From the NCBI GenBank assembly GCA_001599975.1, contig BCIO01000003.1:1364001-1428000 (forward strand): a stretch of 64,000 nt of DNA, read 5' to 3'. The DNA is from Cystobasidiopsis lactophilus. Its lineage: Eukaryota > Basidiomycota > Agaricostilbomycetes > Agaricostilbales > Chionosphaeraceae. The translations under genes and the position numbers were made by a program. This document shows positions 21,583 through 50,319 of the stretch, in pieces (position 1 is the stretch's first letter; the number at the start of each line of letters is the position of its first letter). The notes beneath the pieces were generated by a model that did no database searches, was not told the origin of the DNA, and was given only the letters and a program-made list of their open reading frames with translations.

Positions 21583-23917
21583 ATGCCGTCTAAGATCAGC
21601 ATCAATTTCGCGTTCCATTCCATTGAAAGCGGCGAATGGGTGTGTGATGTGTGCACGGCAAGCGAAGATTCGACTCTTGCGCAACTCGTGCAGCGCTGTG
21701 TGCACATGTTCCTTGATGGGGACTTGGCTTCGGACGACCCCGGGTTCTTGAGGGTGTACCGCTGTTTGGCGGTGACCCCGTTGCTTTCGGACTTGACTGC
21801 ACCCACTGGCCGAATAAACGCTTCAGGCTGTGGGGTGCAAATGCCGGACTCTGTCGCCAAAGGGTTGCCAGCCGAGGACATCAAGGCTTTGCAGCAAAAG
21901 GGTGGGCCGAGCTACAAACCTTGTCCTTTATCGCTTGGCTGACTACGCCTTTCAGGTGTTAAATGGAGGACTACCGTGAACATGCGAAGATTGAAAGACA
22001 TCTGGACGGAAGAGGACTTGCTGCAGGACCCGTCCCTCGACTCAATGCTGCACCTCATCTTGGTCTATGCGCCTTCGTCTTTTACCTCACCTTTCTCTTC
22101 GCCCAAATCTTCAGCACGGCCCCCTTCACCCTTGCGCCCGTCGCCGAGCCCGGTCGGTGCTCATTCGAGACCCCAACTCAGCCCGATACCACCGACAGCT
22201 ACGGGCAGGCCACACGCAATCGTTGCTCCCATTTCCACCCCACCTACAGCTACGGGAAGGCCACACGCAATCGTTGCTCCCATTTCCACCCCACCTACAG
22301 CTACGGGAAGGCCACACGCAATCGTTGCTCCCATTCCCACCCCACCTCCAGCTGTGGGAAGGTCACACGCAATCGTTGCTCCCATTCCCACCCCACCTAC
22401 AGCTGCGGGAAGGTCACAACTAATCGTTTCTCCAACTCCGGCCTCTCCCACGCCGGAGAAGCCCACTGGCAGCGCCATTGCTTCATCGACTGCTCAGATC
22501 CCGGATCAGCGTGAGGCAGCTCTTTACGCTTACCGAGGCCCCAGCCTCAAATTATGTGCACAGCCGTCCCCGTGCCAAAACCGAATAAGAAGAAGCGCTC
22601 TGTGACCACGGAAGGCCTCCCAGAGAAGAAAAAAGCGAAGACAAGCCCGACGCAGGGCAAGCGGACAAGCAAGGCACGGCCCACTAGCGAAGGCCGGGCA
22701 AAAGCCGACGCCAAAGTCAAGGCCAAGAGAAAGTCAAAGGGCGAGCAGCTGCAACAGTTGAGGTCCCACCTCGAACCCGTGAGTCGTCTTGATCGCCTCT
22801 TGGACGATCGGCTCAAGTTGATGCCTCTAAAGGTGACCGTGGAGTTGATGGTCGGCCCATGCCCCGAAAATTGTCCCCTTAGCTGCGAGACGGCGGATTA
22901 TCCGGACGTGGATTGTCCCCCAGCCATTCCGAAGGACTTGGAGGCGCTGGCCATCTTGGTCCATCGACCAGACGACGAAAACCTGAAGCCCTTGCCGCCT
23001 GCTTCTCAAATTAGCGAGGTGGTGCCGTTCAATGACCTTTGGTACCTTATTCTCCAGTCATGGGAAGGTTGGCCGGCGGGCAACTTGGATCCCCCGCCCA
23101 CAGAAGTGCGTCCATTACCGCCACGGCGCTGTGGTTGTGATCTGACACTCGTCTCCAGCCCATGCCATACCTTGCTGAGGCTTGCGGAGCCTTTTTGGAA
23201 GACCTTTTGGGCAGCCTGCCGAGGCTCACCGAGCTCGACATGCGCTATTTCAAGTCTTCGCCAGTCGTCGGACTGCCCAACATCATGCCTTGCGCTCTCC
23301 ACACGCTCAACCTGCGGCTCTCCAACCTGTCTCCGAGAGACCTGCACCAGATCGCTGCTGGATCGGCCACCACGCTCAAGGTCCTGCTTCTTGGCTTCTA
23401 CGACAATACGCCTCAGTTGGAGCTCGCCAATGCACTGAAGGACAGCAAAGCAGCCAGCAACCTCATCGAAGTGCACATCGAGCTCAAGACCTTGCAACCC
23501 ACGGTTGAGTTTGGCCGCTGCGGTGGCGACTTCCTTAACGTGTTCACCCGCCTTCGCTCCTTCACCCTCGATAACTTCGACATGGCGGACACTACGGCCA
23601 AGTCGCCAACTTACCTGGACCCACTGTTCTCCAAGGCCGGCACCTTCCGCGCGTTTTGGTCGACACTCGAGATATTGAACTTGCCCTTCATGACGGCGGC
23701 TCTTCAAAAGCAGGTCTGTGGAGTGTGCCCCAAGCTGCGCAAGGTTCGCTTCATTGCGTTCAGCGGAGGACCGACGTTGTTTCCCAAGTACAAGAAGGCA
23801 ACGTTCGCTTGCCAGAACGAAGGCTTTCAAGATGAGCCGTGGATCTCCAGCGCAAAAGAGGCCAGCCAGTTGCTGCGCGCGCCCGTGGCCAGTGGATCCG
23901 GGACAGGCAAGGCATGA
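21583..23917 (+). CDS. NCL1: member of an unrecognised three-module family (N-module, Cys/WEGWP, LRR-like)
   Basis: About 725 residues, function unknown. N-module (about residues 1-130): 'KISINFAFHSIESGEW', 'LAQLVQRCVHMF', 'AEDIKALQQKGVKWRT', 'LKDIW', 'LHLILVYAP'. A Ser/Pro linker follows with five 17-residue repeats, then a strongly basic stretch, 'KPNKKKRSVTTEG' to 'KVKAKRKSKGEQ', likely a nuclear signal. Middle module: 'VELMVGPCPENCPLSCE' and 'QSWEGWPAG'. The C-terminal LRR-like half has 'LTELDMRYFKSS', 'LHTLNLRLSNLSPRDL', 'LKVLLLGFYDN', 'LIEVHIELKTL'. Introns at about 21902-21955, 22515-22567 and 23106-23158 restore the frame. The start ATG is 21583. Three relatives lie at 41.7-50.3 kb. 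Confidence 0.72.
22195..22449 (+). repeat. Five tandem 51-bp coding repeats (17 residues each)
   Basis: Copies begin at 22195, 22246, 22297, 22348 and 22399. The first three are almost identical and the last two have diverged. Each encodes a unit like 'PTATGRPHAIVAPISTP'. The period is a multiple of three, so the frame is kept. It lies in the linker of NCL1. Confidence 0.92.
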
Positions 23918-24171
23918 TGCAGCGGCAGGGTCCAAGATGGGATGCTTCGAAGCTCAGGTTGTGCGAATGTCAAGCTCGAGGCGAAAGTGGTCAAAACAGT
24001 GGAGCTCGTGATATTAAAAGTTAAGTACACGCTGGAGCTGTTTTTGAGGCCCAAGAGCATGAGAGGGAGGCAGACTGGCTCGCTGAGCCAGTCGCGTACA
24101 CCTCCTCCGCCCTCCGAGCAACTCGCAAAAACAGCACGCAGGAAACGTTAAGAGTTCAGAACAGGGGCCAT

Positions 24172-26237
24172 TCAAATGTCTTCCAGGTTGGATGCGGTCG
24201 TAGCGGACAACCGCCAGTTGGCAGATTGACCGGCTCTGCCAATGGGCGACTGCTGCGAGCCGGTCGAGGACACGGAGGGACCTCGGGGCTGGCGCAGTGC
24301 CGATGAGAATGAGCCGTTAGACGTCGGAGATGGCGGCGCCATATCGTCGGGCGACTGAGCGCGCGCAGAGTGAAGGGCGTTAGAGGGGAGGGGCGGGATG
24401 GCGCCGGAGGGGTGCTGAAAGAGACCGCTGAGGCTGGGTCGCTCCCGCTTAGATGTGGAGCGCAGGTCGACGTTCGACTTGCGGGTGTTGATGCTGCCAG
24501 CGGCAATGCTGCCCGCAGAAGGCGAATGGCGCATGTCTGGCATGGACTTTTTGCGCAGGTTCGACTGCGAGGAGCCCGATCGGCTGAGGGTCTGCAGCCA
24601 AGGGAACGTGAGCATTCGAGTCACTCAGTATCCGCACTGAAGACGCACCTGGTAGCTGTCGTTGGTGACGTCGCCTTTGAAGACCACGACATAGCGGTCG
24701 TCGCCATCGCCCACGCTCTTGTGGTCAAGGTTGAGCTTTTGGGCGACGAGGTGGACGACGCGGCGCTGCACGCCAGTCAGGGACTTGGAGAAGGCCAGTT
24801 CGTCTCTTAAGCTGTCGTCCTTAAATATCAAAACGCGAGAGTAGACTGAACGGAGCAAACTCGTGAGCTTGAGATCAACATAGAGAGAACAAGGATGGAC
24901 GCACTCTCTAATGTTTGCGGGTCGTTCATATCAAGCTCTGAGAACGATCCGAGGTCAGAAATTGAAGAAGAAAGCAGTTTTGGAGGCATCGGAAGCGTAC
25001 CGGTTGGCACAGTCTTCGCCGGTATTGAGCGAGGCGCCGAGCTGGATTGGGAGGAGGAGGAAGGGTCCATTTCACTTGAACCGGGTGAGCCGATGCTGTT
25101 AGAGGGCTGCGAGGTGGTGGAGAACTGAGACGAAGGGGTGTTGGCCAAGTGCGAGAACCCGGATGTGGCGGATGGCGGGTTAGAGCCCACGCTGCCCCAA
25201 ACGTTGGGCGCATCGTACGAAACAGGTGAGGTCAGCTCGTCGTGGGAAGCCGAGTTGGATAGGCCGGCCACCGGCGACAGATAGTGGCCGTTCGCGGTGG
25301 TCGGCGTCGAGTTGGGTGGGGTAGCCAAATTGGTGCTGAGGCCGGCGGCGCTGCGCATCCTCTTGAGTGCCTTTTCCCTCTCGATCTTCTCCTTCTCGCC
25401 CTGGCGCAGCACCCGCTTGAATTCGACTCGCAAGCGGCGACCTTGGATCTCGTAACCGTTCAAAGCGGCCAGCGCCGCCGTCGTTTCGTTAGGGTCCCTG
25501 AAGTTGGCGAAAGCCAGGCCTCTGAACTGAGCGGGTTGGTTCGGTCCGGCAATGTCGTAATGGTAGTTGAAGGCGTAAGGCGGAGCTAGCTGCAGCGAAT
25601 CCTGTTTTGTTTTGCATGAGCGATAATTCTCACATCTTCGCCTGCGTAAGGAAGCAGCGAAACGCACCATAATAGACATGACTTGCTCCCTGGGCACGCT
25701 GAAGGGAATATTCTTGATTACAATGGCGGTGGGAATCACTTCGTCGGAGGCATCTTCCTGCCCCGGCAACAAACTGCCCGGCAGGGCGAAGCTGTTGTGC
25801 TGCAGCGACGCAGGCGGCGGCGACAGCTGCTGCGGCGGCGGAGGGGCGTACATGGGCGTAGCGTTGACGTCGGGCCGGCTGATGACAGGGTTGAACCAGA
25901 GCGGCGCCGGCTGGTAGCCGTAGAGGTTGTTCGACTCGGAGGACGAGTCGGACGAGAGTGAGCGATCTATATGGTGCTGTGGCATGAACGGGTCGGGCTG
26001 GTGGGAGAACATGGGCATGGGCGGAGCAGGGCCAAAGTCGGGCGCTGCATTGCGGCTGACGGTGAAGCGCTGGCTGCGTTGCTGTTCCGGGCAACCGAGT
26101 GCGTCAGTACACGCTGTCTGGCCCTTCGCACGACAACCAGGGGCGCCCACCTTGCGCAGGCCAGGCTGGTCGTCAGGCCCCGAAGCAGCCAAGGAGACGG
26201 AATCGAAATGCTCCTGCAAATTATGCATAGCGGCCAT
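24172..26237 (-). CDS. RNA-binding protein with RRM and R3H domains (Pin4/Cip2-like)
   Basis: About 620-residue low-complexity RNA-binding protein, presumably a cytoplasmic post-transcriptional regulator. The RRM has RNP2 'TAIVIKNIPFSV' and RNP1 'FRGLAFANFRDP', ending 'GRRLRVEFKRVLRQGEKEKI'. A Ser/Pro/Thr-rich linker follows. The R3H-like domain contains 'RRVVHLVAQKLNLDHKSVG' with the R-x3-H signature and 'RYVVVFKG'. The N-terminus is rich in Pro, Gln and Met; the C-terminal tail is Ser-rich with many SP/SQ sites, as in phospho-regulated Pin4-type proteins. Introns lie at about 25603-25670, 24835-24895 and 24590-24650. The ATG at 26237 begins 'MAAMHNLQEHFDSV'. The relation to Pin4 or Cip2 is from domain order and remains tentative. 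Confidence 0.78.
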
Positions 26238-26611
26238 TTGGGGCTTTTCAGGTGCAAAGGAGGGACGTTCGAGCTAAGCCTGGTGAAGGGCTTGAGGCTC
26301 TCGTAGTGACGGGGCAGAGGGTCGTGGGTTAGAAGAGAAGAGTTCGAGCAGTGCTTCGCCGGCGCCCAAAACAATCTGCAATCTTTTCGTGGTGAGGTCC
26401 AGGAAAGGAGTCTGGCCAGAACTGCCAGCCACCTCGGTTCGTAGGCGAAACGCTGCCTGGACCTGGGCGAGCTGCCAAAAGAGTCGACGGTTCAGCTCGA
26501 AAAGGCAACTTCGCCAGGCGACATCGAGGTCGGTTGCTCAGGTGACCTCTGGCTACGTGAGCGTGGAGCTAAACGAGGGGTTGCAAATCGTAATGATAGA
26601 ACGAGTCTGTG
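26238..26611. other. Intergenic stretch, no gene seen
   Basis: About 370 bases between the start of the RRM/R3H gene and the stop of WAPL, both on the minus strand. It probably holds the RRM/R3H promoter and the WAPL 3' end. Open frames here are antisense shadows without domain content. Confidence 0.45.
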
Positions 26612-28854
26612 CTATGAGCCTAAAGATTCCAGGACCTTGTCGAGCAACTCATCCCGATCACGGCCTTGCTCTGCAAGTCGGGCCAGCACCAGCTTTCGGT
26701 CCTCCGTTGACGCCACCATGCACATGCCAAGCAAGACCCTCAGGAAGGCGGTCAGGAAGCCGTGCTCCTTGGAATCCGCGTCGGCGGAGTGCAGCAGGTA
26801 AAGGTCCGCAAGGTGGCGCAGGATGGGTTGCTGGTCGGCGCAGTGGCACGCGGTCAGACAGCCCACACTTGCGCTGCAGGTGGTGGATATGGTCTTTTGC
26901 GAGAAGGTGGCAATGTGGGCGGGATCAGCTTCGAGAAGGTTCGTGAGGAGGCCAAGGGTGAGCGAGAGGAGATCCAGCTTGATGGCGTCCAGCGGCCCGG
27001 AGCTGAGGTCGGCATCGCCGGTCGAGCGCATGAAGCGCATAAGTACATTGAAAAGAGAAGGTGAAGAATTGATCATGGCGGCAGCGAACTTGAGGTCGAG
27101 GTTGGTGAGGTTAATGCACAACTTGAGACATGAGAGCAGCCCGTCCATTGCTGAGGTTCCAGCCTTTGAGACGAACCACTTGAAGAGCTTGAGGGCTTGG
27201 CTTACCTGTAGAGGCTTCATGCACGTCGACTCCACACGCCAAAAGATGCGACACCGCCAAAAATGTGGTCAGCTGCTGGCCAAGGCGTGGCGAGATCTCC
27301 AGCTTTTCGTGCATTGTTGGGGCTGTGCAAGGCTCTAAGATGTCAAAAGTGGCATCAAACGCCGCGACATCAATGTCGGTCGAGCCGAGGTCGATGGAAG
27401 CCGCCGCTATGTCTTGCTCCAGGCCAGACAGCAGGCGGGGTGTGTGAAGGGAAAGTGGGACAGCGATTGCCGGAATTTGAGTGAGAAGGAGCCCGAGGTC
27501 CAGAAAGAGCAGCTGCTTAAGGGAGACGCCGCGCGGTGGCAGGATGGAGTCGGTCCAGAGCTTGGCCGAGTCGATGGTCGATTTGAGCTGTATCAACGAG
27601 TTGGCCTCCAATCTGGAAGGGGAGGATCTAGGATGGCCAATATCCAGATTCACGAATTTGTGGTCTAGCGTCTCCATCAGGTAAGCCAGGTTAGACGACC
27701 CCGGTTGGGCAAAGTCGGCGAAGGAGTCGACGTCGCGTTTATCTTTGAGCGAAAGGGCGATGAAGAAGAGTAAAGAAAGATCCAAGATCTGGTTCTGTGC
27801 GTCAACATACTGAGAGGTGCCGGAAAGTGGCAGACCCACCAGATCGTGCGCCACCGCTGCCCCTTTCAACTCGTCGTACACGTGCCTTGTCGACCCGCTC
27901 AGGCGCATCTTCCGAAGGAACTCGGGTTCCGAAAGCTTCTTGACCAGCTCCATCGCGCTGGCCCTACGCAAGCCGACCGGCTCCTCCGGCGAGAGACCAT
28001 CCAGAACGTAGGCCAGCTCGTCCTCGAACCGTTTGCTCTCCCCTTGCGACCGCAGCGCATTGATGCCTTTAGATTTGAGACGAAGGGCGTCCGAATCCGA
28101 ATCCAATCCGCCATCCTCCTCGTCCGAGTCCAGGTTGAACTTGGTCCGCAGATCGACATATGAGGACGAGGCAGATTTGAAAGGGTCTTCGGAAGTCGTG
28201 TCGATTAACAGCGTCGGCACAGGGCTCTGGTTAGCAACGACGTAGGACCGGGACTGGGCGTAGGTTTTAGAAGCTGACCCGGGCCTAGAGAGCGGAGGGC
28301 GACTGGGCGACGGCGATGGCGAGCGGTCGTTTCGGTATCGAACTGTGCTGTTGCCCGGTGTGTTGAGCCTAGGGCTACTGTGTGATCTTACGGAAGGCGT
28401 TGTTGATTGCCCTGGCGAAAGCGTGCTAGTGCCAACAACTGGCATCGAAGAGGCGTGTTTTACGGGCGAGCCGCTTTCGCCTGTTGCGCCATCAGCGTCA
28501 TTTCTGTACTTATTAGAGCTAAAACTGACTCGAGGAGGCTTGAGGATTAGCTGGCGACCTCCGCCGGCCCATGCGTTCGACAAGCCGCTTCTTGGCCGTG
28601 TTGCTCGAGGCGACGCTCTCTGTGTCCTCGGTATCGTTACCAGACGCGACAGAAGCTTCGTGGAGCAACCTCTTCCTCTTGCCTATTTGCCACCGCGGCG
28701 AAGGAGGATTGTCAACCTCAACGACAACCTCGAAGGTTGCGGCGCCAGAGGAGCTCGAAGGCGACGGAGGCCCACTGACAACGGCCAGGGACGACCGCTT
28801 GCCCTTGTCTTTACGAGAGTAGGTGACACCTTTCAAACGCGCCGTCGTTTGCAT
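26612..28854 (-). CDS. WPL1: Wings apart-like cohesin-release factor (Wapl/Wpl1)
   Basis: About 715 residues. Wapl opens the cohesin ring in the nucleus. The N-terminal third is Ser/Pro-rich and basic ('KKRLVERMGRR'). The WAPL domain starts near 'EDELAYVLDGLSPEEPVGLR' and runs through 'AMELVKKLSEPEFLRKMRLS', 'VYDELKGAAVAHD', 'LLFFIALSLKDKRDVDSFAD', and the helical-repeat tail 'LKLCINLTNLDLKFAAAMI'. Two introns fix the frame, about 28519-28560 and 27164-27206; the first has a clear 'gctaat' branch site. Length is short compared with animal WAPL but ordinary for fungi. I saw no classical FGF or YSR motif in the N-terminus by eye. It sits next to MIS12. Confidence 0.85.
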
Positions 28855-28999
28855 CGTCTCCAATGGGGACCGAGTTGCAGGACGCGGACAACCTGCGACG
28901 TTCGCTCGACGCCTGGACGACTCTTGAGGCGGCGAAGGCTGTTGTGGTATTACAGGCTAATAAGACGAAGTATTACAGAGCGTTACAAGGAGTGCCAAA

Positions 29000-30085
29000 C
29001 TATGAGCGAGGAGGGATTAGACTCGCCAGAACCTGTGAAGGAGAGAGTGATGAGTTTGAGAGGTGCGGAAGCCAGCCGAATCAGAACCCTTACCTGCGCA
29101 TCTTCTGCCGTCCCTATCGCATCCTCGGGTGTGTTTCTAGCTGCTGAGGTATCGACCAAGGACGAGCCAAGAGCTGAGGTGGCAGCCTTGGCCAGCAGCA
29201 CATCCGAGGCTTCGGCAATGTATGCCTCCCGCGTCCCCTCCTTGACGCTTGACGGGCCGGCAGTAGACGTCGCCGGGGTAGGCGTCTTGGCTAGATCCGC
29301 CATTGCTTGCTCCAGAAGCCGGATTGACGGCTCAACTTCTTCGAGTTGGCGCACCATCCGCTCTGCGTCGCGCACACGCATGAGTCTGCAAACTGAAAGA
29401 GGCAAAAGCTGGCATGGGACGTACCAGTAGCTTCCTCTGTTAACCCTAGCGCGTCCAGCTCGGACTCGGCAGCCTGGAGGGCTTCCAATCGCCTGGCTAT
29501 CCGCTCATGCGCCAAGTCCAAATGGTGCGCCTTGTCGAGCTCGGCCTCGTACGACCGCCGCTCCTCCTCCAGCTGCCGTAGAAGCGCCTCATCTTGGCCT
29601 CTTAGCGAGTCCGGTAGGCCGGCCTCGGGGTGGTGGGCGAGCTTGATATAAGGGATGAGGTGCGGCAAGAAGGCGAAGACGTTTCTGTGCAGATAGGCCT
29701 CGTATTGGTCGAAGCGGAGGTCGACTAGGGATTCTAGCAGCGTCTCCAGTTTTAGCAGGCCCTGGGAGCGCTTGCTGTGAGCACCGAAGGCACCTGGGCC
29801 GGGTTGTTGACAAGAGGATCATGCGCGCACCTCTTCCACTTCTCGACTTGTCCCCAGCCGCTCTTTTACGACGGACTCGATGCTGTCCATAGCCGAGTAA
29901 ATGACCTCGTTGCCCAGGTCCACAGCCCGGTGGGAGAACGCTTGAGGGACGAAGCCAAAGTGCTCCATCAAGACCTCTTGGATCTGTTGCGCGCAAAGGT
30001 GCGTCGAACAGCATCAGCCAACGCGTCTGGACAGCTTCTGGAGAACACTGACTACGCGCCGCTGCTCCGGGGTGAGGTCGGACAT
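29000..30085 (-). CDS. MIS12: Kinetochore MIND-complex subunit Mis12/Mtw1
   Basis: About 300-residue coiled-coil protein of the outer kinetochore. The N-terminal Mis12 core appears after splicing: 'MSDLTPEQRRVVSVLQKLSR', 'IQEVLMEHFGFVPQAFSHRA', 'VDLGNEVIYSAMDSIESVV', then 'LLKLETLLESLVDLRFDQYE' and 'RNVFAFLPHLIPYIKLAHH'. Heptad-like helices follow, 'EALLRQLEEERRSYEAELDK' and 'ERMVRQLEEVEPSIRLLEQA'. Four introns are inferred near 30020, 29800, 29395-29425 and 29025-29087. The third is only about 32 bases if the frame is right. The ATG at 30085 is the only start that leads into the family N-terminus. The family is clear; exon edges are less so. Confidence 0.85.
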
Positions 30086-30244
30086 GGCGAGAAATGACCC
30101 TGGCGCGGGCGCGCTCTTTTTCGTTGATGCACGGCAAGCTGTTTCAATTCTGCTGGCCGTGTCGTGGCTGGGCCACAGTACCACGGATTGGAGCCTGAAA
30201 TCATAGCTTTACAATCTTGCAACGACCATTAAAACCAGAAAGCT

Positions 30245-31682
30245 TCATAGCTGAAGCTCCTTGAAACGCTCCCGTTCCTCCATCTCCGCCACCGCTGCTC
30301 GAAGTTGTCGCGTAGATGGCATCCGGCCATCCCCAGGCACGGCGACCACTTCGTTCTCTTCGTCAACATCCTCGTAGTCGTCCCCTTCGTCGTCTGAGCC
30401 GGAGCCGGAGCCGCCCAAATGCTTCATCAGGTAGCGCACGTCCGGCGGGTAGTATTTGAGCTGGAGCCATCAGGTTTGTGAGCATGTGAAAGCTATATGG
30501 AAGTAGATTCGCCTACAGGGTCGTTAGTCCCAAGCCATCCGGCTTTTTGGCCTTTGTCGTAGTGAAATTTGCGATCCCATTCGACGACTCTGTCTGAATT
30601 GGGCAGCGAGAAGACGCTTGCACCCCGAGCGTCATTTGGTCTCAGATTCATTACTTAGGGCGCAAAGAAACTGTCTAACGGCAAACATCAGGCCTAGTGG
30701 CAGATTAGGGCAGCAAGACAAGACCTACAAGGCTCATGCGGATGCCCTCGGAGTCTGTCTTCCTCCTCCGGCTCTGGATCCCAGTCAAATGCCTCGATCA
30801 CGACCAATACCGCAAGGTCATCAATCGAGGCTTGGGCGACAAGATCAACCCTCTCAATAGCTGCCTGGGGCGTCCGCCTGACTCTCATCTTGGCCTTCAT
30901 GTCATCGAGGGTGCGCCTTCGGATACTCTTGAGTTTGAAGGTACTTTCGGGGCCAAATACGAAGCCGGCAGCAGCGGTTTTACGCCACCTGAGCTTGACG
31001 TGGCAGCAATGTTGCTGCCGAAAGGTGGCCGGGTATCCGCTGAGCAACGCGCCATGAGACGCACTCAGGAGCATGGGTTCGAACACCTCTAGCCATCCGT
31101 CTAGGTCGGCGAACATTTTGTCCTCCGTATCTGGCGGCGGGCCGGGCTGTAGGCCAAATGAGGCCCACGAAGCGACGTGAATAGCAAAACAGACGGACAC
31201 GGCATATCTTCTTGTGCCATTTCCAGAACTTGCGTTGGCAGTCTTTTGACTGCACCATCGTGTGAGTCTTGAGGGATAACACGGGATAGGGGTCCACTCA
31301 ACGCAAAAGCTGGCGTGCTTGCACCTCGAGCAGAGCTGGAGCTTCTCTTCTTCGATGAGCCAGTCCTCGCCTGTGAGAGCTCTGGAAGCATGAGAATTGC
31401 AGGGGCGAACATAGCAAGCCAGAGTAAGCCAGGCCGACCTTTGTTGCAACCGTCACAGCGAGCGGTCATCCAGTGTTCGGGCGATAGCATCAACTCAGAA
31501 TTAACAGTGCCAGGCTCTATCTCGTCGCCAGAGGACTCTTCGACATAGGGGACAGAAAGGGCCAAATCATCCAAGTTCAAGTCGTCGATTTCGGCCTGCG
31601 GCTCTCTCGGTGCCGCCGTTGGCTTCGGCTTCGACTTGGTCGCCCTTGACGGAGGCGGGTTGCCTTTCTTCTTTGCGGGCAT
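30245..31682 (-). CDS. Second MYND-type zinc-finger protein
   Basis: Starts 'MPAKKKGNPPPSRATKSKPK', basic and disordered, then an acidic 'DDLNLDDLALSVPYVEESSG'. The MYND ladder is assembled across exons: 'RCDGCNKALTGEDWLIEEE', 'LQLCSRCKHASFC', 'SKDCQRKFWKWHKKICR'. The middle contains 'FADLDGWLEVFEPMLLSA' and 'FKLKSIRRRTLDDMKAKMRV', possibly partner-binding. The C-terminal exon ends 'RQLRAAVAEMEERERFKELQ', a charged helix after an Asp/Glu run. Four or more introns are needed, and exon ends in 30.6-31.3 kb are uncertain. The ATG at 31682 is the first Met before the acidic region. Role unknown. Confidence 0.7.
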
Positions 31683-32022
31683 AGCGGGGGAGAGCAAAGG
31701 TGTGCACAGAAGCGACTGGCCGCTGCGGACCAAGGGGACGAGAAGTCGGTTTCTGTCCGGGACGGCCAATCTCACTCGAACAAGCATCAGCTTTGCCTAC
31801 CAGACTCTTGACTAGGAGTGCTGCACGACGCGCCGTAGACTGAGAGTTGGCCCATTTGAGCGGCGCGTCTAGCTTGTGTGCTGGCTGCCCTGGCATCACG
31901 GCCCTTGAATCTTGACCGGTCGCATTCCTCATTTCCAAGTGTGCGGCTTCAAGTGAAGACTTCTGCTCAGTGTATACTGCGCTTTGCTCGCGCCCGGAAC
32001 GTCAAGACTTGGTGCAACCGCC

Positions 32023-32578
32023 ATGTCTCTGTCGGATCGCCTTCAAGACCTTTCTCTGTCGCAGCCGGCCGACGACCAACTTCCCGCGCCAGAGGACCTT
32101 GAATACACTTTGCCAAACTTCCGAGCCTTGGTGACCGAAAACGAGGCTCTTCGAGCCGAAAACAAGCGGCTCAAAATCACTATCCAAGATCTAGAGGAAG
32201 AGGACGAAGGAGTGCGCGAAGAGCTGGAACTTGTGACTTCCGATAACCATCGACTCCGGAAGATGTGGGATGACAAAGAGCTGCTCCGAGCCGAAGTGCG
32301 TCAACGTGAATTGGCGAGGGAGGCTGAGTGGCAAAAGGTCAAGGACTGGCCCATCCACAAGGTAAGCCCTTCGGTGCCATCAAATATCAAGCTTGATGGC
32401 TTCAAAAGCTACTTGGTGTGCCCGAAACGGCGTCTGTGCAAGCCAAGCGTGAAGCGGTTCGGGTGGCGTTGTTGAAGTGTGGGTCATTCTAGCTAAAGCG
32501 ACGTCTGGGCTTTCCTCACCTATTTGCTGTGAATAGATCATCCTGACCGTGCTCACGGTAGTAAGTCGAATGCTATGA
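32023..32578 (+). CDS. Small coiled-coil orphan protein
   Basis: The ATG at 32023 opens 'MSLSDRLQDLSLSQPADDQL'. A long leucine-heptad coil then runs through 'VTENEALRAENKRLKITIQD' and 'EGVREELELVTSDNHRLRKM' to 'KVKDWPIHK'. The first exon ends at a GT at about 32362. The best guess for the last exon is about 32536-32578, adding 'IILTVLTVVSRML' and a stop. That end is uncertain, and transcripts could continue further. No homologue is recognised. The dense coil without other domains suggests a structural or adaptor role. It diverges from the MYND gene with about 340 bases between starts. Confidence 0.5.
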
Positions 32579-32857
32579 TTGATTGCGGCGATCAGGAGTT
32601 GAGCAGCGACCTAGACACGAAGATTTGTCAGAAGGTACACCTCTGCCCGTCTTTCTCTCCCCATCCGCACCACCATGTTCAAGCATGCTTGTTGGTAGAT
32701 TACTCGCGCGAAAGAGAGCTTCCTAGGTTCACCAATCTGACGCGTCGCCATTTTATGTCAGCATCCTTTTGTTCTCATTATTCGGCCCGATTGGCGCCCT
32801 TTGCGGAATTGCGACCATCAAACCAGACGAAACTGGACGAAACTTTCAGCTGTTACA

Positions 32858-34403
32858 ATGATACTCGTCGCCCTCACAGCGAGAAGTCGCTCCAGAGCTC
32901 AAGGTCCACATGGTCTCTGTCGTCCTTTGGGTATTCAGCTCGCGCGCGAGAGCTCCTACGCACTAAAACTACCCGGAGCGAGGGCTCAGTCGACGCAGTC
33001 GCCTTCTGGGCCTCACCTGGGTGACTGGCTACGAAGGAAGTACACAGACTTTCGGAACTACACGACGGTGAGCAAGCGCCATGTGAATGCTAAGCAAAGC
33101 TGAATCGCTGTACTAGACCACCGAAGACGCCTTCCGCCGTGGTAAGCAGTGAATACGGGGCAGGAGACCTGGGCGCTGACGCCAATGTTGACAGCGAGCG
33201 CAGCGTTTGGACGGCAGAATTGGTCCGACGCCCTCTACTTCTATGCTTTGAGTCACAAAAAGGCTATGGAGACACGGAACCTCGAAGTGGCTTTCAAAAG
33301 TGCGAGCAAGATTGTCCAGATAGCGCTGAACAAGGTACAGCGAATCGGTCATACTGTATTTCTGCCGTGGATGTGACTTACGGGGTCCATCAGGAGCGGT
33401 TGCCTTCAACATTTTCGAGTACTCTCGCCCTGAATGGTGCACTAGATCTCACAGCGCTCATCTTGGGAATGGGAAAAGATACGAACAGCAAAATGGGCGA
33501 GTGCGTGGCCTTTCTGAGTGCAAACACTACGGCATGTGATTCCGTGTCTCACAGGTATCTCGAAATCGGCGAGCTTTTACTCAAGATCAACCAGACCGAA
33601 CTGGCTAGCGCCATTATCGAGCAAGCTGGTCAACACACCCCGGAGAATGACACTGTTCTGAAGCGCTTTTACTCCTTGTCGCTCGACTTCAAAGCCGCGC
33701 AGAAAAGCCGCGCTCGTACGCTTCGTCTACACAAGACAAGGAAAAAGAAGCCCGCGACCAAGGAGCTCTGCGGCGTCGAGCTCGGCATGAAGCCCGGTGG
33801 CTAAGGGCCAAACGACTTCGTGCCGCGGAGGCAAAAGCCGAGCACCAACGCTCCAGACAAAAACAGCAAGCTGCTCCAGAAAACAATAATACCAGCCAGG
33901 CAAATCAAAAGACCACGGCGAAGAAGAAAGCAACCCCAAAAGCGCGCCCTGCACCCAAAAGCGAGCCGACTTCTGCGCAAAGCAGTCCCATCAAGCCATC
34001 ACCGCCTCCCACACCGCCACCAACTCCTCAGCCAGTTTCACCTCTAGACTGGACAATGCAAAGTATTGCGCGCGTCGAGAGCCAGCTCCCCAAAAAGGGG
34101 CGGCCAAAAGAAGGCTACGCTATATGGATTGTCCTGGATCTGAAGAAAGAGAACTCTACACGGGAGCAGAGGCGCGCCGCCTACCTCAAGGTGATGAAGC
34201 AGAGTAAGTCGATTGGTGTTGATGACGCGCGCAGCAGCTAAGCGTGTTATCGCTTTAGCCCACCCCGACCGGCTCCCGCCTGCCCTCAGAAGTGAGTGCA
34301 ATATCGTACTCTTGTGGTTGGTCTCGTTAAATAACCTCGCCGCGTAGCTCCGGCGAGGGACGAATTTTCGGCATGGGTGAGCCTCCAAGTTGAAGTTGAC
34401 TAG
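32858..34403 (+). CDS. Mitochondrially targeted protein with TPR-like helices and C-terminal J-domain (HPD)
   Basis: The N-terminus 'MILVALTARSRSRAQGPHGL' and following Arg/Ser-rich residues look like a mitochondrial presequence. A helical region follows: 'WSDALYFYALSHKKAMETRN', 'LEIGELLLKINQTELASAII'. A Lys/Pro-rich linker leads to a divergent J-domain, 'EGYAIWIVLDLKKENSTREQ', 'RRAAYLKVMKQTHPDRLPPA', where HPD is the Hsp70-activating triad. Helix III after HPD is very short, so the J-domain is truncated compared with the usual 65-70 residues. HPD lies in a 33-base exon, 34259-34291, between introns 34204-34258 and 34292-34347. Other introns are near 33070, 33146, 33335 and 33770; the last of these is inferred only from frame. 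A role with mitochondrial Hsp70 is inference. Confidence 0.65.
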
Positions 34404-34643
34404 GCCTTAACCGAATCTGAAAGTATCGAGCCAGTTGAACGAAAAGTGGAGTGTTATCTCTGAGAACGACAGCTCCAACCTTTGAAGTGCTGTGGAACGC
34501 GGCTGGGACCATCGAGCTTCTCGTCTTTATCCGCCACCGACGAAACACTCTTTGGCGCTTCACAACGGTTTCGGAACCTCTTGTCCCTCAACCACCACCT
34601 TTCCTTACACGGTCCGGTCCCTTACTTTCGTTCATTCTCTCAA

Positions 34644-35204: not shown

Positions 35205-35265
35205 GGTCTCAAAGACGGGAATAATGGACAAGTGGGCAGGGTCTACGAGGGCGAAAAAAGGGCGT

Positions 35266-41583: not shown

Positions 41584-41679
41584 AGATTTGTATCATCATA
41601 TTGTTTCAACCGAGTAATTGCTACATTCACAAGTGGGGACCAGAAGCGGTATTACAAGTGTTATAAAAGGATCGCATAT

Positions 41680-43369
41680 TCAGTAGTTGGTGCCGTGCTC
41701 GAACTGCGCTTTGCCCTTCTTGGGGGCGATCGCGCCGCCGACAGCGTGCGTGTAGCGGACCAAGGTGAGCCGCGGGCAGCAGGCGGCGACGCGGCCTTGG
41801 AGCTCTGGTGACATGACAGAGACGTTGAGCGTCTCCAGCGGCGACCAGCAGGGACGCTTGCCCTCCGACTTGTCGAAGACTTTGGCGAAGAAGCCGGGTT
41901 GGTTGGCGGGAGCACGCGTGGTCGATGAGCCGTCCAGGTAAAGTGTCTTGGCGGCTGAAAAACTGTGTAAGAAATCGCCACCGTGCCGCTGAAACTCTTC
42001 GTCCGCCTCCTTTGACTTCATCTCCAACCGCAGCTCCGTCACACTGCCGGTTGCTCGCGTCCCCTTGATTGCTATCCCCAAGTTGACCAACGACATCCTA
42101 TCGTATATGCCCATGATTAAGACCTTGAGGGTGTCTCCGGAACGACCCAATATCTTGGTGAGGTCGATGTGGGAAATGGCCGAAAGGCGGACGTTGAGAG
42201 TGTGGAGCTGGCAGGACAGAGGAGGAAGGCACAGGGTGCTCGAGGACTTGAAGTAGCGGAGGTCGAGCTGCTGGAGGGAGGGGCAATTGCGCAAGACATC
42301 CTTGAGAAACGGGCCACACGTTTCTGGCAGTGGCTTCATTCGAGCCAGTGGAGGCGCGTTGGTGAGGGGGTCGGCCACCGGCCAGCCTTCCCAGCTGGAC
42401 ATGATTAGCTCTTTGGTCCGGTCGAGCTGCAGGGGGTCGGCGAGGCGCCAGGCGGCGGGCATGAAAGCGGACGAGTCTTCCGGGCGGTGGATGTGCATGA
42501 CCAGCAACGGCGGCCTCCCGGTCGTCTTCAGGGCCAGCTCTTCCACCGGGGTATACTCTTCAGCAGGGCATTCCTCGCCGCAGCCGCCCGTGCAGCCCAT
42601 CACCATCTCCACCATGGCTGCCTGTTTGACGACGCTTTCGCCTCCAGACTTTCCCCGCTTCTTGCTAGATCCTTTCGAGCTCGAGGCTTTCGCATTCGAG
42701 GATCGCTTGCGCTTCTCAGTTTTGCGGTTGTCTGAGAGATGTGTCAATTTCCTGTTGAATGCGACCGACCGCCGAACCAGTAACTCACTCGATGGACCGG
42801 CGCCGCTATCTAGTGGAGCATAAAGCCTACATTAGAGGACTAACTCCGAAAGTGCACCGACGCAATGGCTCACCTGAGTTTGTGGTTTCGTTTGACAGCG
42901 AGATAGCGCTGCTCGAGGCTCCCTGTGTGTTGTCGTCCAGGGAGGACAATGGACTGGAACCGTCGTCACTCTGCTCTTCAATGGACAACGGGTTCTGAGA
43001 CGATCCAGGCGCCGGGGAGCGCTTCGGCTGAAGACTTTTCGGGGCGCCTTGGTGGATCAGCACCAGTCGGATTTTGTTTTGGTCGTCCTCGTCGTCCTCT
43101 GCGTCCCAGAGCCCCAGGTTGGTGATTTCGTCTACCGTTTCCGCCATGCTGGACCTCCAGTCGACGCCGTTGGCTCTGAACTCCTCGATAACACCGGCGG
43201 ACAGCGCTTTGAGGTCGCAGTTGTTCATGCGATCTTCAGCTGGCAAGGGGTGGACCGCGACATTGTTGTAAATCTTCAGCAGCTCGGCGTCGTCGGTGCG
43301 AAACGGGCGGCCCACAGACAGGGAGAGGCACCGTTGGACCAGGCCGTGGAGGTGATCCCGCTTTTGCAC
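41680..43369 (-). CDS. NCL2: member of the three-module family, 5' end unclear
   Basis: The N-module is recognised from 'DHLHGLVQRCLSLSVGRPFR' through 'CDLKALSAGVIEEFRANGVD', 'WRSSMAETVDEITNLGLW' and 'NKIRLVLIHQGAPKS'. A Ser-rich acidic linker and a basic run, 'RKTEKRKRSS' to 'SSKKRGKSG', follow. The middle module is 'VEMVMGCTGGCGEECPAEEY' plus 'IMSSWEGWPVADP'. LRR-like half: 'LQQLDLRYFKSSSTLC', 'LHTLNVRLSAISHIDLTKIL', 'LKVLIMGIYDR', 'VTELRLEMKSKEADEEFQRH'. An intron of about 100-130 bases joins the linker near 42750-42870. The N-module's first strands are not in one uninterrupted frame with the rest, so the upstream limit given is where coding is clear. The gene may be impaired or have an unseen exon. 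Confidence 0.6.
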
Positions 43370-43701
43370 GAGCAGCGAGTCAGGTCACTTGGCCTCCGTG
43401 CCATCGAAGAAGCGAAGCAGAGACGAGCTTCCTCTGTCGACATTCTTATCCGTGACGCGCCTCTTGCTTCGGACTGGACAGTTGGCGGTTCGAGAAGAAA
43501 GACTTTCATTATCGTGAGCGCAACGGTGTAATTTTGCCAACCTCTTCAAATACTTTGCTAACTACATGTACAAGAGCCCACTACCATGATACTGTATGAC
43601 CGGGGTTATTGGGCACGAAAGCCTGAAAACCTCCGCGCTTTCACTTTGTCCATCATAAACCCTCCAACGCGACCAACGCCACCGCAGAGGAGTCCCTGCG
43701 C

Positions 43702-45730
43702 CTAGACTTGCATGTCCAACCAACCCATCCACGTTTGATCAAACTTGAGACGCTGAGACCATTGCCCCAAAAATGGGAACCTCTCTGGCACGTCCTTGAT
43801 GTCGGCCCGGTCGTACAGGTTGATGAATCTCGTGCCCCTCCTAGGTTTCGCCTTCGTGAGAACCTTCGCTGAGACCTGCATACGGCGATAGCGAACCACT
43901 TCGAGGTCTGGAAAGTGTTCCTTGCTGGACAGGATGTTTCTGTGGCGTCTGCAAAGGATCGTGATGTTCAAGAAGCGCAGCCGAGGCATGCTTCTGGGCA
44001 GCAAGTCCTTGAAGAAGAGCCCTTTAGATGCCTGGGGAGAAGGTCAGACTAGATCGGAAAGCGCGGAGACAGCAAACAGACACACGCAACCGCGGTACTC
44101 GAATGCTTCCACTGTGACCGATTCGATGGCTCCGTACAGGGCCAAGAAAGAGCGACAATCCGCGGCTTGAAAATTTTTCTCGACCTTCTGGGTCTTCATT
44201 TCCAGCCTGATCTCCTTGAGGTTTTCGAGAGCTCGGCGGCAGGAAAGCTGGCTTGAAATTTCCGACAACGCAGGCGACTGTTCACAGATGCCAAGGTTTA
44301 AGAATTCAAGAGAAGAACCAGAGTTGTGCAAGAGTGCGGCGAGGTCACGGGCCGAAAGACTGGAGACTCGTAGCGTCAAACACCGAAGGGCAGGGGTGAA
44401 GTTGGATAACGGCGCCGACAGGGCGGACCTGTAGTAAGAGAGCTCAAGATTTGAGAGAGGGCTCGCCCTCGTGAAAGCTGCCAGAAGATCGGCAACAGCT
44501 TCAGAAATGGGCTCCATCTCCTCTTCTTGAGGGCAGTCGGTGGGCGATTGACCCGGCGCTAGATCTGTTTCGACTGCGCATTCCCATCGCACAGTGCATC
44601 GCTTGGCTACAAACGGATCGGGGAGCGTACTCGGGCAGCCATTCCAGCTGACAATCGCCAGATCCTCCGCACTTGAGAACTGATCGATGATATGCTCTAC
44701 GTCGGAGCGGTCAGGCTTATGAGTCCATAGCTCGATGACCGTGTGGTGCCTCATGTGCGTCCTTACGTCCTCAATCTACACAGCTTGCTTCAGCCTTCTG
44801 CTCGGTCAGGATGTGATCCAGAGCTCACAAAGTTCCAACCTCCCAATCTCGGGCATCTCTCTTGGAATTCACAGTCTTCATCGCCGGTCGGCTCATGGGC
44901 CCAAGCCACTTCCAGCTTATCATGTGTATAGGTCAGATTAGCCTCCCAGCCAAGCAGATAAGTGCGAACGCTAATGCTCACCTTCGCGTCGGGTGCATCT
45001 TCCTCGTCGCTCTCTCCTCCTTCCTCTTCGCGACCCTGGTTTTCATTCTCTGCTCTGTCTTCACTTCCAGATCTAGAGGGAGATGGATCCGCGTCCTCCT
45101 CTCGAGAAAGGCGGCCCAAAAAGAGGGGTGAAGGTGGGAGAAAGGGTGGCGCGGCGCTAGTCTCGGTCGTGCGGGCCTTCTTGGGGGATTCGGCGGCCAG
45201 CGGAGTCGTCGCGGCCCTCTTGCCCGAGGACTGGGCGGGCTGATCCCTTTCCGGGCTGGCCACTGTCACCCTGGAGACCGATCGAGAAAGGGCGGGTTGG
45301 GATGCGGGCGTGGAAGGTCGCTGAATCGGAGGGCGGGCCGGAGCTTGGTTTCATCGGAGGCGCGAAGGAAGTATAGAAGGTGAAGCTCTCTGTCGTCAGT
45401 CGGGTCGAAGAGCTTCTCGAGCCTTGTTGAAAGGTGCTCCGATGTCCACGCCTCGCTTTCTGCCGAGAGCTCCTCAATCTCCGCAGCAGACGAGGCCTTC
45501 ACGCCGTCTTCCATTAACCACCTATCGTTCAGCGGGAGTAACGACAGGCGCTTGTGCGTGTCGAGGGATGACTGATCCTTCGGGTCGAACTTCAGAAAGT
45601 TCGTGCCCGAGAACATGCCCTGCCCATGTCTGAGGAGATTGATGACCTTGTGCGAGGGCAAACAGTCCTCCAGGCTGCTGAAGCTCCCTTTCCTTTGATC
45701 GGCGTTGTAAAGCAAGCAATTGAGCTCCAT
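43702..45730 (-). CDS. NCL3: member of the three-module family
   Basis: Starts at ATG 45730, 'MELNCLLYNADQRKGSFSSL', which aligns with the NCL1 start. N-module continues 'SHKVINLLRHGQGMFSG', 'AAEIEELSAESEAWTSEHL', 'ELHLLYFLRAS'. The linker is Pro/Ser-rich with 'SGKRAATTPLAAESPKKART' (probable nuclear signal) and an acidic 'NQGREEEGGESDEEDAPDAK'. The middle module is weak: 'DEDCEFQERCP', 'IELWTHKPD' and 'VSWNGCPSTLP' in place of WEGWP. LRR-like half: 'LSNLELSYYRSALSAP', 'LRCLTLRVSSLSARDLAALL', 'LEFLNLGICEQSPAL', 'LKEIRLEMKTQKVEKNFQ'. Introns near 44756-44810, 44042-44095 and about 45260-45280 (least certain) join frames. It is the most divergent member. Confidence 0.62.
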
Positions 45731-46450
45731 CAGGCGTCGGCGTCCTTGAACCCGACCTTAAAAAGGGCAAAGGCGGGAGGGAACGCGGTCAGACGAGTTC
45801 GCTTGCTTTCTCGTCGACGGGCAAGCTCAGTGAGGGCGTTTGCTAGCCTCTGCGAGACCTTGAGCGAGGGATGCTCGTTGCTCCCGAACGACCTTGCGCA
45901 TGCACGCTGAACCCTTTTTGATGCTCGGCTTCTCCTCTGCTCGTGTGCCATGTGGTTCTCTGCCAATGACCAGACACTTCAAAATGATGATGCTCGTATG
46001 AAAATCTTGCAGCCTTTGGGGATAACCAGCGTTCAGCTCGATTTCGCCACCAACCCGAAATGCCCTCTGTTCGCTCGAATTTGCTGCATCCATCGGTGTC
46101 TTTCTCGCTTGCAAATTACTTGTGTACTCGTGTAGTGATTCCAGTTTGGCAATTGGCCAAGACGCAAACACTTTAAAGTACCGAACGCTTGCTGGCAAAT
46201 AAGCTTTGCTGTCCGCTTTATGGAAATTTGTACCATTTCGGATCAGCGAGCTGCTGTGCGTCCACGAGTCACACTCAACTTAACTCGAGCAAGCGAAATA
46301 TGCCCGCGATGTGCCTGCCGCTTTTGCAAATCATTACGAACACTGGGAATCTCTCGCTTGTGCTTTTTCACTTGGCCACTCCCCTTTGCTTTCTTCGTCC
46401 ACCACACCACTCTTGCATCGCACCTTTCTTTCTAATTCTCTACGAACGCC
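45731..46450. other. Intergenic stretch between NCL3 and the Cys-rich gene
   Basis: About 720 bases, the longest gene-free stretch in the window. It separates two divergent starts. Open frames here are short and not GC-rich at third positions. The last 150 bases before 46451 are pyrimidine-rich. Confidence 0.4.
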
Positions 46451-47285
46451 ATGCATCTCACGCTGCTTGCGATCATCGCTTGGGCGTTGGTCGACACGGC
46501 TGGTGCCAAGTACATGCCCACCAAGGTGCTCACCGCGCACCAGTTGGCAATCAACAAGCGCCAAGTAAGAACGGCGTTGCTACGGCAAAAGCGGGTCAAG
46601 CGCTCTGACTTCGGCTGCGCTGCTGCGTACGTCGTCGTACTTTCCCTCTAGGCCAAGGCTGACCGGGAACAGACCCGCGCCAACGACCCAAGCATGCTCC
46701 TTCTTTGGCGGTCTGTCTACATGCGCCGCCTGCTCGAGCACTTGCGTTGATCTCCGAACAAATGCGAACAACTGTGGCAGCTGTGGAAACGTTTGCGGGA
46801 GTGGCAACATTTGCTCTGGCGGTGTGTGCCGCCCCAACTGCGCGGGTCTCGGCTTGAACCTCGACAGTATCTTGAACGTGTATGCTGATCCATCCTTTAC
46901 TTTGCCCAAGTGGACCGTCTGATTCGAATGATGTCTCGGCAGTTGCCTCTGCCTCGATCTGGGCATTATCAAGATAGGAAACTCCCAGTGCCTCTGTAAT
47001 AGCGCAGTGGGTCTTACATTGAAGTCAGTCGTCCTCACTAGACCTAGCGATTGGTTCTGACATTCGGGCGGCAGTTCATTGGGCACAGCATGCACATGCG
47101 CCAACGCAAACAGCGTCTATGTGGGCGGTTCTTGCGTCACCAAAGCCAACTGTCCATCGGGGTCGACGTACAACGCGGCGACGAATACCTGCACATGTGC
47201 CAACATCTCTCAAGTGGTGTTAAATGGGAAATGCCAATGTCCACCCGGCACGCTGCTCAGTTTGCTCGGCATCTGCCTTCTGTAG
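46451..47285 (+). CDS. Secreted cysteine-rich protein
   Basis: The N-terminus 'MHLTLLAIIAWALVDTAGAK' is a signal peptide. The mature protein has dense cysteines: 'TTQACSFFGGLSTCAACSST', 'NNCGSCGNVCGSGNICSGGV', 'CRPNCAGLG', 'CLCLDLG' and 'CTCANANSVYVGG', 'CPSGSTYNAATNTCTC', ending 'GKCQCPPGTLLSLLGICLL'. Two or three introns near 46870-46930 and 47025-47070 restore the cysteine frame; the first join (46560-46680) is not fully resolved. Spacing resembles EGF-like or adhesin-type repeats, but no defined family is recognised. It lies between NCL3 and NCL4, facing the opposite way. Probably extracellular or wall-associated. Confidence 0.7.
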
Positions 47286-47441
47286 GCAAAAAGCACCTAG
47301 ATGTACAAAGAGAATATCTACAATTGGCATTTGGAAGACCCTTGCTCAACCCACGCCGATTCACCTGGTCGCATCAAAGAGCACCGAGGCCAACTTCGAG
47401 GTCAAAGGGGACGCTTGACCTCGCCCGTCGAACTGAATGCG

Positions 47442-50319
47442 TCAAGGGGAGCCTAGACCAAGTTCCGGGTCAAAGGGGAAGGGCTTGGTCTTGTTCCAGG
47501 GCTTGAAAGCCAGATCGGATCGGCCCACGCTCGTGAAAAGTGGCCCGCATTCGTCCACATAGCGCACGGTCTTGAGCTTGGTATATCGATGCTTTTCGCT
47601 GAACAATGACTGCATAGTGTGGGACAAGGTGGGAAGATTGATGACGACGAGAGTGTGCTGGAAAGCGGCCACCTCGCTAGATTTGGGCCAGCGGAAGACC
47701 GGGACCAGGTAGTCTGCATCGGCAATGTAGGCGTCGTGGTTGATCACGTCGACACTGAGCGTGCGGAGGACTGAAAAGTGTTGTAGGAACGTGAAGCCGG
47801 TCTCGTGAAACTGGGTGTCCGCCTCGGCCGATTTGAGCTCAAGCCGAAGCTCCAACAGCGACTTGTCCACTTTGGCATCCTTGAGCGCTTTGCCCATTTG
47901 CAACAAAGTTGCGCCCGTCCCTTCAGCGCCTGTGTAGATGCCTACGGTCAAGCTCTTCAGACTCTTGCTGCTGTTGACCAGCAGAAAGTAGAGATCGAGT
48001 TCGGATATCATCGACAGGCGCAAGTTGAGGGCCGTGAGATCGCTTTGAAGCGGTCGAAGGGCAGGGGCCTCGGGGACGCTCTTGTAGAACTCGATGTCGA
48101 GCGACTTGATGTTGCACTTGAGCTTCAACCGATTGATCACATCGGTACACAGGTCGCTCAGCTTGGCCATCTTCTCCGGGTTCGGGTTGTCTTCGTCGGA
48201 CTCATACGCTTCCCAGCTGGTCAGCCTTTACGAACGCCGTTAGCTGCAGCAAAAACCTGGAGGCGCGGCAAGGTCTCACTTGAGTTCGTTGACGTGCGAC
48301 AGATCGACACCGGAAGCGATCAGGGTGGTGATCTGGCTACGGTCTGAGCGTCGCATGGGCGAGCCTGGAGGTGGCGCTCGAAGAGAGTTATTGCCGTCAT
48401 GCAGCCAGAGGACGATGTTCTCGACAGGCAGCTTCCTGCGTTTGATATCGGCCAGCTTGTCGTACTTGTACTTGGTGCACTCTCCACAGCCATCACACCC
48501 AACGACCATCTCGATGGGCTAAGAAAACCGGTTAGCTAGAGAGCTGCCTGCAGCAGCAAGTCCACGTACGCGGGACCTAGGTTTCTTGTTGGGCGACGGC
48601 GTCGACGTCGCGTTCCTGGACTTGCGCCAGGAGGGTGTATGCACAAAGGAGGCCGAAGTCCCTTTGGCAGGCACGGACTTGCGCGCTGTTCTGGAGCCGC
48701 CAGCGCCTAGGAGGGTCACGCCGCCACCCTGCCGGGCAGCTTGCGACGAACTGTCTGCCGTCTTGGCTCTCTTGTTGGCTTTCGCGGCCAAAGTGGGCGC
48801 GGGCGGCATTTCTGACTTGCGTCGCTTGCGCTTTCGTTTGGACGAGAAAGTCGGGCCCCATCCCATGGTTCGCGGTGCCGCGGTACTCTTCGCTCTTTTC
48901 GGTTTTGGTGGTTGGACGGGCAGGTCAGGTCGAAGTTGAGCAGACAAAGCAGCATCATCCAGTTCTAAAGTGCTCACGATCAGCTACTGCCACGATTTGG
49001 AACGCATTCAGCCAACCGTCTTCATCCAAGTCCGAGTCTTCGTCTAGTACGATAGGCTCTTGGTGCTCAGCCTCAGGGCTCAGCTCGTCCTCTTCGTCGC
49101 TGGCTCCAGCGGCAGGATCGACTTCCGGTCCCTGCGGCTCCAAAGATGGCGACCGCGAGGGGTGTGGCTCTGTCAAGGTCGACACCCTGCTGAGCGCAGG
49201 GCCAGCCATGTCGGGCGATTCGGCTTCGGCTTTGGTGGGGCGAGAGACGCGCCTCGGAAGGGGTGCCGTGGGGCGAGAGTTTGGAGGTCGTCGAGGCGAG
49301 GAGGTGCTTGGAGGAGACCGAGCGAACAGGAGCAGATGGATTTCTTCAGACCAAAACTGAATCGACGTTTGAGATATCAGTGCTTCAGGCTTGAACGAAA
49401 GACTCACGAACTCGTTAGGCCCCCAAAACGACTCAGCTTGACGCAATTTTTCTGTGCGCCAAGCGTTGGCAGGCGCCTGAAGTTCCGAGATGTCCTCCAG
49501 GGTGAGGGCATCGAGTCCGGTCACTGCAATTTGGTCACCGCCTTTCAAAGCGACCACGCCCAGGTTGTGAAAGAGCTTCATTGCCTGTGCGTCGTTTTCA
49601 TCGAACGGTCGCCCCAAGTGTTCTGCACAACATTTTCGAACGAGCCTGTGGATGGTGCAACGATCTGCACCACGCGGGATGCTGGTGCTGCCCACCGACC
49701 AGTGGCCGTCCTCTCCTGCATCTGCAAATCGAAAAAGCGAAGTTCAGGTCGATGGCGTGGGCTTCTTCATCATTGGGGCGATCACGATCAAGAAAGGGTG
49801 CCGTGAGACGCGAGTGCTGAGGCGAAGAGATGCCTGGAGGAGACCGAGCGAAAAGGAGCAGATGGATCCTTTCAGACGAGAACTTATTGGGGTTTGAGAC
49901 GCAAGTGCTTTGGGCTTGGACGGAAGACTCACGAATTCATTCGTCGCCCACAACGACTCAGCTGGAAGCTGTCCCTTTACGCCGGTGCGCCAAGCGTTGG
50001 CAGGCGTCTGGTGTTTGTATATGTCCTCCAAGCTGAGGGACTCGAGCGCGGTGACAGCAATCTGGTTCTCGTCCCGCAAGGCAACCACGCCGAGGTTTGC
50101 AATGAGCCTCATGGCTTGGGGGTCGCTCTCGTCAAACGGGCGGCCCAAGTGCTCCGCGCAACATTTCCGAACGAGCTTGTGGACAACGCAACGACCACGC
50201 GGGACGCTGGTGCTGCCCACAGACCAGTGGCCGTCCTCTCCTGGGTCTGCAAATCGAAAAGCGAAGTTCAGGTCGATAGTGTGCGCATCTTCATCATTTT
50301 GGCGATCAGGATCAGACAT
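47442..50319 (-). CDS. NCL4: three-module family member with a duplicated N-module
   Basis: The ATG at 50319 opens N-module A: 'IDLNFAFRFADPGEDGHWSV', 'VVHKLVRKCCAEHLGRPFD', 'LSLEDIYKHQTPANAWRT'. A splice at NEF leads to 'RIHLLLFARSPPG'. A second splice (about 49735-49800) enters N-module B in frame at 'AGEDGHWSVGSTS', then 'IHRLVRKCCAEHLGRPFDEN' and 'LTLEDISELQAPANAWRTEK'. A basic linker has 'SSKRKRKRRKSEMPPAPTLA'. The middle module is 'IEMVVGCDGCGECTKYKYD', with 'SWEAYESDEDN' in the WEGWP position. LRR-like half: 'IKSLDIEFYKSVPEAP', 'LTALNLRLSMISELDLYFLL', 'LELRLELKSAEADTQFHET'. Other introns are near 48980-49025, 48520-48570 and 48225-48280. An alternative is that module A is a separate remnant. 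Confidence 0.62.
49259..50319 (-). repeat. Adjacent direct duplication of about 530 bp (49259-49790 and 49795-50319)
   Basis: The two blocks match base for base over long runs. Anchors: 'tctgcaaatcg' at 49721 and 50246; 'gcgccaagcgttgg' at 49456 and at 49987; 'agcgaa..aggagcagatgga' at 49321 and 49847. The offset is 525-531, with small indels. Each block carries the whole N-module including its intron, so the duplication is at DNA level. It is the source of the tandem N-modules of NCL4. Confidence 0.9.

Follow-up and report, generated by a model that had tools for sequence, protein, structure and literature searches.

NCL1-NCL4, a local family of four genes pairing an unmatched N-terminal header with a predicted leucine-rich repeat domain in Cystobasidiopsis lactophilus

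Four paralogous genes, NCL1-NCL4, are located in a 64,000-nucleotide window of the basidiomycete Cystobasidiopsis lactophilus (contig BCIO01000003.1; C3:1364001-1428000 of a 22.1-Mb, 8-contig genome). They form an old local family of four members, and the computed module order is an N-terminal header, a tether and a C-terminal leucine-rich repeat (LRR) module. The fold of the LRR half is of a known kind, whereas no family in the searched libraries matches the header or its pairing with an LRR; NCL may be a new family. Our leading interpretation, held with about even confidence, is that NCL1-NCL4 are a small, old, locally duplicated group of intracellular, probably nuclear, LRR adaptor proteins.

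NCL1 lies at window positions 21583-23917 on the plus strand. NCL2 (41680-43369), NCL3 (43702-45730) and NCL4 (47442-50319) are all on the minus strand, which bears out the minus-strand array described in an earlier sequence-only reading of the window. Surrounding genes in the window match Ctf4, WAPL, RTA1 (a fungal family), ArfGAP, an RRM protein, aldehyde dehydrogenase and MYG1. The paralogy proposed by that reading was confirmed, with all six pairs of C-modules and five of six pairs of N-modules (the headers) scoring above all shuffles. Identity to the first C-module is 26, 31 and 39%, and the NCL1 C-module has a cross-paralogue match at an expect value (E) of 5.5e-44 in the own-genome search.

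AlphaFold2 predicts the C-module to be a curved LRR solenoid (predicted local distance difference test [pLDDT] 78.4, predicted template modelling score [pTM] 0.82; first 60 residues uncertain), in agreement with the LRR-like C-half noted earlier. Because the prediction is a single solenoid, the third and fourth blocks of the sequence-only reading, described there as separate modules, look like one LRR domain; the four-gene observation was upheld for paralogy and not for this division. The predicted fold resembles FBXL17, FBXL2, SKP2, Rad7 and RanGAP. PDB sequence searches at E up to 5 and 10 returned BRI1 at E 2.5 as the best LRR matches, none significant, and RanGAP1-type LRR proteins were not among the NCL matches. 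To our knowledge, RanGAP has no header of the NCL kind. Module sequences (six, E up to 5) and joined members with tethers left out (four, E up to 10) were searched using hmmscan, in which HMMER filters discard most matches above E 0.1; no Pfam enzyme domain was found in the C-half. As an adaptor, the protein would use its FBXL-type solenoid to hold a protein ligand.

NCL1-NCL4 may instead be diverged FBXL-type substrate receptors, in which the LRR picks the ubiquitination target and the header replaces the F-box, binding Skp1, Elongin C or a cullin adaptor. This is possible but doubtful. By predicted structure the LRR solenoid is common to NCL and FBXL proteins (SKP2, FBXL2, FBXL17, yeast Rad7, plant TIR1/COI1); structural matches to the C-module include SKP1-FBXL17, FBXL2, SKP2, TIR1, COI1 and Rad7-Elc1, and PF24758 was touched at E 0.007 in one of four joined members. 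However, NCL has a different N-terminal domain, a long basic tether and no significant sequence match in PDB, and no F-box family matched the six module sequences or the four joined members. The sequence-only reading had set its claim against membership of a standard F-box/LRR family, and NCL does not look like one: its LRR fold has the F-box/LRR character, yet no F-box match turned up. PF12937 has 45 genomic matches at E 0.01 or better, none of them in the window, and PF24758 has five at E up to 1, likewise none in the window. F-box loci were also rejected as a source of the LRR, using profiles of the header (A1) and the LRR (A2). For the best 20 of the 45 PF12937 loci the best E was 3.2 with A2 and 1.1 with A1, and a 21st, an F-box plus PF24758 gene on contig C2, gave E 1.6 with A2, so that the 21 loci compared (24 remain outside the comparison) show no clear LRR sequence kinship.

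Six-frame whole-genome searches, using the NCL2, NCL4 and NCL3 C-modules as queries, each returned the same four genes, and no further C-module was found at E up to 1 or 10. The LRR module was thus found in four genes of one locus only, which does not support the many copies anticipated by the sequence-only reading. The NCL4 header retrieved both NCL4 header copies and NCL2, as did the NCL2 header. The NCL1 header retrieved only itself, and the NCL3 header itself and C3:3117153 at E 0.159. The latter was rejected as a header relative, having no support from A1 (listed matches at E 41 and above) or A2 (matches of that locus at E 23 and above). Searches with one header at a time fail to retrieve some of the known paralogues, so a distant header in another part of the genome could escape detection.

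Searches beyond the genome returned no relatives. In a database of 5.8 billion protein sequences, the NCL1 C-module region found 0 matches among 4,060 candidates at E up to 10, and the joined header and LRR alignment (A3) found 0 among the 7,997 candidates sharing most words. A control, the RTA1 open reading frame of the window (Pfam E 7.8e-39), likewise gave 0 at 1e-5 among 7,999 candidates, and for this reason the two NCL negatives say nothing on orphan status or spread. It appears that this search could reach few fungal proteomes in the collection, or none. Viral contigs contained 63 pattern stretches, none related to NCL. None of the titles and abstract openings retrieved from the literature describes this architecture, although it may still have been published.

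No significant match was found to the header, or to any other part of the NCL family, in Pfam, NCBIfam or PDB sequence searches, in keeping with the sequence-only reading of a family without a name. The headers close with the strands LHLILVYAP, IRLVLIHQGAP, LHLLYFLRA and IHLLLFARSPP, and an L/V-x-PL strand is present in NCL1, NCL2 and NCL3. The AlphaFold2 model of the NCL3 header is weak (pLDDT 57.5). It opens strand-strand-helix and has a later strand, the closing strand lies outside the model, and it settles no fold, ubiquitin-like or other. In the adaptor interpretation this small domain would dock to a shared partner, perhaps a ubiquitin ligase or other nuclear complex.

Crinklers (CRN/CR) resemble NCL in having a header that ends in a hydrophobic strand and is followed by a different C-half. 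The CR N-terminus has been described as ubiquitin-like; its LXLFLAK motif lies on an inner strand and HVLVVVP closes it, and nuclear association is reported for CRN proteins (PMC5289972). Nuclear association of NCL is guessed. NCL could accordingly carry a ubiquitin-like CR/SSK1-type header with an LRR in place of the CR toxin domain, an explanation we consider improbable. The order of an L/V-x-PL strand and then a hydrophobic closing strand recalls the CR N-terminus described there, and the opening and later strand of the weak NCL3 model are consistent with this. However, that model is too weak for a fold and lacks the closing strand, and the C-half is a predicted LRR and not a CR toxin domain (NTPase, kinase or REase-type). 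Crinkler membership by sequence was rejected: PF20147 was unmatched by four header sequences of NCL1, NCL3 and NCL4 at E up to 5. Within the HMMER filters, the four joined members (NCL2 among them) gave no match to it at E up to 10 either. In the own-genome search PF20147 touches only one place, outside the window, at C2:1045693-1045791 (E 0.26), which we take to be a ubiquitin-like gene of the Hub1/UBL5 kind whose upstream frame is rich in RS. The further proposal that a ubiquitin-like (beta-grasp) header of the CR/SSK1 type is fused to an LRR sensor, in an undescribed class of fungal nuclear LRR receptors or adaptors, is given a slim chance. Fungi were surveyed as a kingdom without LRR pattern-recognition receptors (PMC2939053).

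The tethers consist of 54 to 60% P, S, T, A, G and N. Overlapping K[KR]x[KR] matches number 2, 2, 1 and 6 in NCL1-NCL4, the NCL3 count being for the single-frame part only. Secreted effectors and LRR receptors would begin with a signal peptide. The N-termini of NCL1, NCL3 and NCL4 have no strong hydrophobic stretch in a hydropathy look, which is not a signal-peptide predictor; their best 10-residue means are 1.26, 0.71 and 0.88, against 2.91 for a neighbouring secreted-type gene. The long, disordered-looking tether, nuclear-signal-like in its basic clusters, would take the adaptor into the nucleus. Within the NCL1 tether, a 51-nt unit is repeated in tandem at 22189-22433 (~4.8 copies, 93% matches), encoding a 17-residue repeat that is likely a site of length polymorphism.

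The NCL4 header exon lies within a tandem duplication of ~525 nt, with direct repeat blocks 76-94% identical at a spacing of 524-535. The two header copies differ by dS 0.80 and dN 0.16 (synonymous and nonsynonymous divergence; Nei-Gojobori, 101 aligned codons), for a dN/dS of 0.20, which indicates that header codons were under constraint through most of the copies' separate history. Divergence is uneven across 49257-50314, with 94% identity in one block and 76% in the next, and may reflect patchy gene conversion or uneven constraint. Diversifying selection on the paralogues, which the sequence-only reading called diversifying, was not supported, as there is no sign of positive selection. This, though from one strain, also weighs against a self/non-self recognition locus, where the clustered LRR proteins would diverge from strain to strain. 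The local cluster, the low identities to the first C-module and the NCL1 tether repeats would suit such a locus. However, no Pfam NACHT or NB-ARC match was found in the four members (tethers left out of the query), and fungal NLR-like (NOD-like receptor-like; STAND, signal transduction ATPases with numerous domains) proteins, which like NCL are repeat-domain proteins, are reported to carry WD, ANK and TPR repeats and no LRR (PMC4986451). We regard a recognition locus as very unlikely.

All splice sites were read from DNA alone, without transcripts. Introns placed in the NCL genes are 50 to 66 nt, apart from one 576-nt candidate in NCL4. NCL1 gives a complete reading frame, opening with an ATG and closing with a stop, over five exons (21583-21901, 21956-22510, 22564-22778, 22833-23105 and 23159-23917), with introns of 54, 53, 54 and 53 nt that all have GT..AG ends. 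Its header (21583-22080) comprises exon 1, with the ATG, and the start of exon 2, and aligns with the other headers; the first intron (21902-21955, 54 nt, GT..AG) contains an in-frame stop. The low-complexity tether (22081-22778) contains the intron 22511-22563 and the basic clusters KKKR and KKAK. The LRR C-module (22833-23917) is encoded by 22833-23105 and 23159-23917 with the stop. The intron 22779-22832 is optional because the frame is open through it; it was placed by a homology guess and was not among the scan candidates. That three genes share an intron before the C-module is no more than a hint: only NCL4 has a stop that requires it, and in NCL1 and NCL3 the frame stays open through the putative intron.

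If the 576-nt intron, far longer than the others placed, bypasses the second header copy, NCL4 has five exons, with its ATG at 50319 and its stop at 47442. The first header copy (49933-50319) has the ATG and lacks the closing strand. The second (49719-49408, followed by the intron 49407-49357) lacks a separate ATG, and at the junction its phase differs from that of the first. The closing header strand and acidic/basic tether occupy 48570-49356 (exons 49356-49017 and 48964-48570), and the LRR C-module occupies 47442-48518 (exons 48518-48280 and 48225-47442 with the stop). In NCL3, the header (45329-45730) is a single uninterrupted frame with an ATG, and the LRR C-module (43702-44915) reads through in three exons (44915-44829, 44775-44086 and 44031-43702 with the stop). 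The reading frame changes within the tether (44982-45328), where no convincing intron was found. The NCL2 header and first tether part (42874-43369) form an open frame that aligns with the other headers; no in-frame ATG was found in it, an in-frame stop lies just upstream, and the hairpin part is missing. The remaining NCL2 tether and the LRR C-module form one exon (41680-42809; modelled portion 42615-41683). The models of NCL2 (start) and NCL3 (linker phase), two of the four, are provisional.

These irregularities would also fit a decaying cluster, in which NCL1, NCL4 or both still work and NCL2 and NCL3 are relics. The missing NCL2 start, the NCL3 frame change and the second NCL4 header copy, which is out of phase and without an ATG, are consistent with decay. 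However, every gene keeps its main LRR exon open for 230 to 311 codons, and the constraint measured between the NCL4 header copies counts against decay. Decay of part of the cluster is considered unlikely.

The interval separating NCL3 from NCL4 holds an apparent secreted cysteine-rich protein gene at 46451-47285 (+), arranged tail to tail with NCL4. Its ends were read from DNA with introns left out of the model. The product has a hydrophobic N-terminus and a KR site. PF04885 marks a STIG1-like piece at E 8.9e-5 (23.3 bits, cut-off 24.1), and PF01683 an EB-module-like piece at E 3.8e-4, below its cut-off. Between NCL1 and NCL2 (region 30694-33804), a coiled-coil-like frame is found at 31984-32475 (+), and the open frames 31101-31787 (-), 30697-31449 (-) and 33139-33804 (+) have no Pfam match at E 0.05. 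Elsewhere, C2:779000-783000, the 21st locus of the F-box comparison, carries PF12937 (E 0.003) and PF24758 (E 3.8e-4, exceeding the cut-off together with neighbouring matches); it looks like an ordinary F-box/LRR gene and provides a contrast to NCL. The whole genome gave no match to PF00221, the aromatic ammonia-lyase family, at E 0.001, which speaks against red yeasts of the Rhodotorula/Sporobolomyces type.

A nuclear LRR adaptor role ranks as the most likely for NCL1-NCL4, followed by an FBXL-like role without an F-box. If the family is only a diverged F-box/LRR relative, it adds another orphan family and little beyond that. If the header were ubiquitin-like, CR-type headers would be tied to LRR recognition. 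With an unassigned header joined to an LRR, duplicated as a cluster, and the LRR found at one locus of the genome, NCL offers a tractable case of a candidate nuclear adaptor specific to a lineage.
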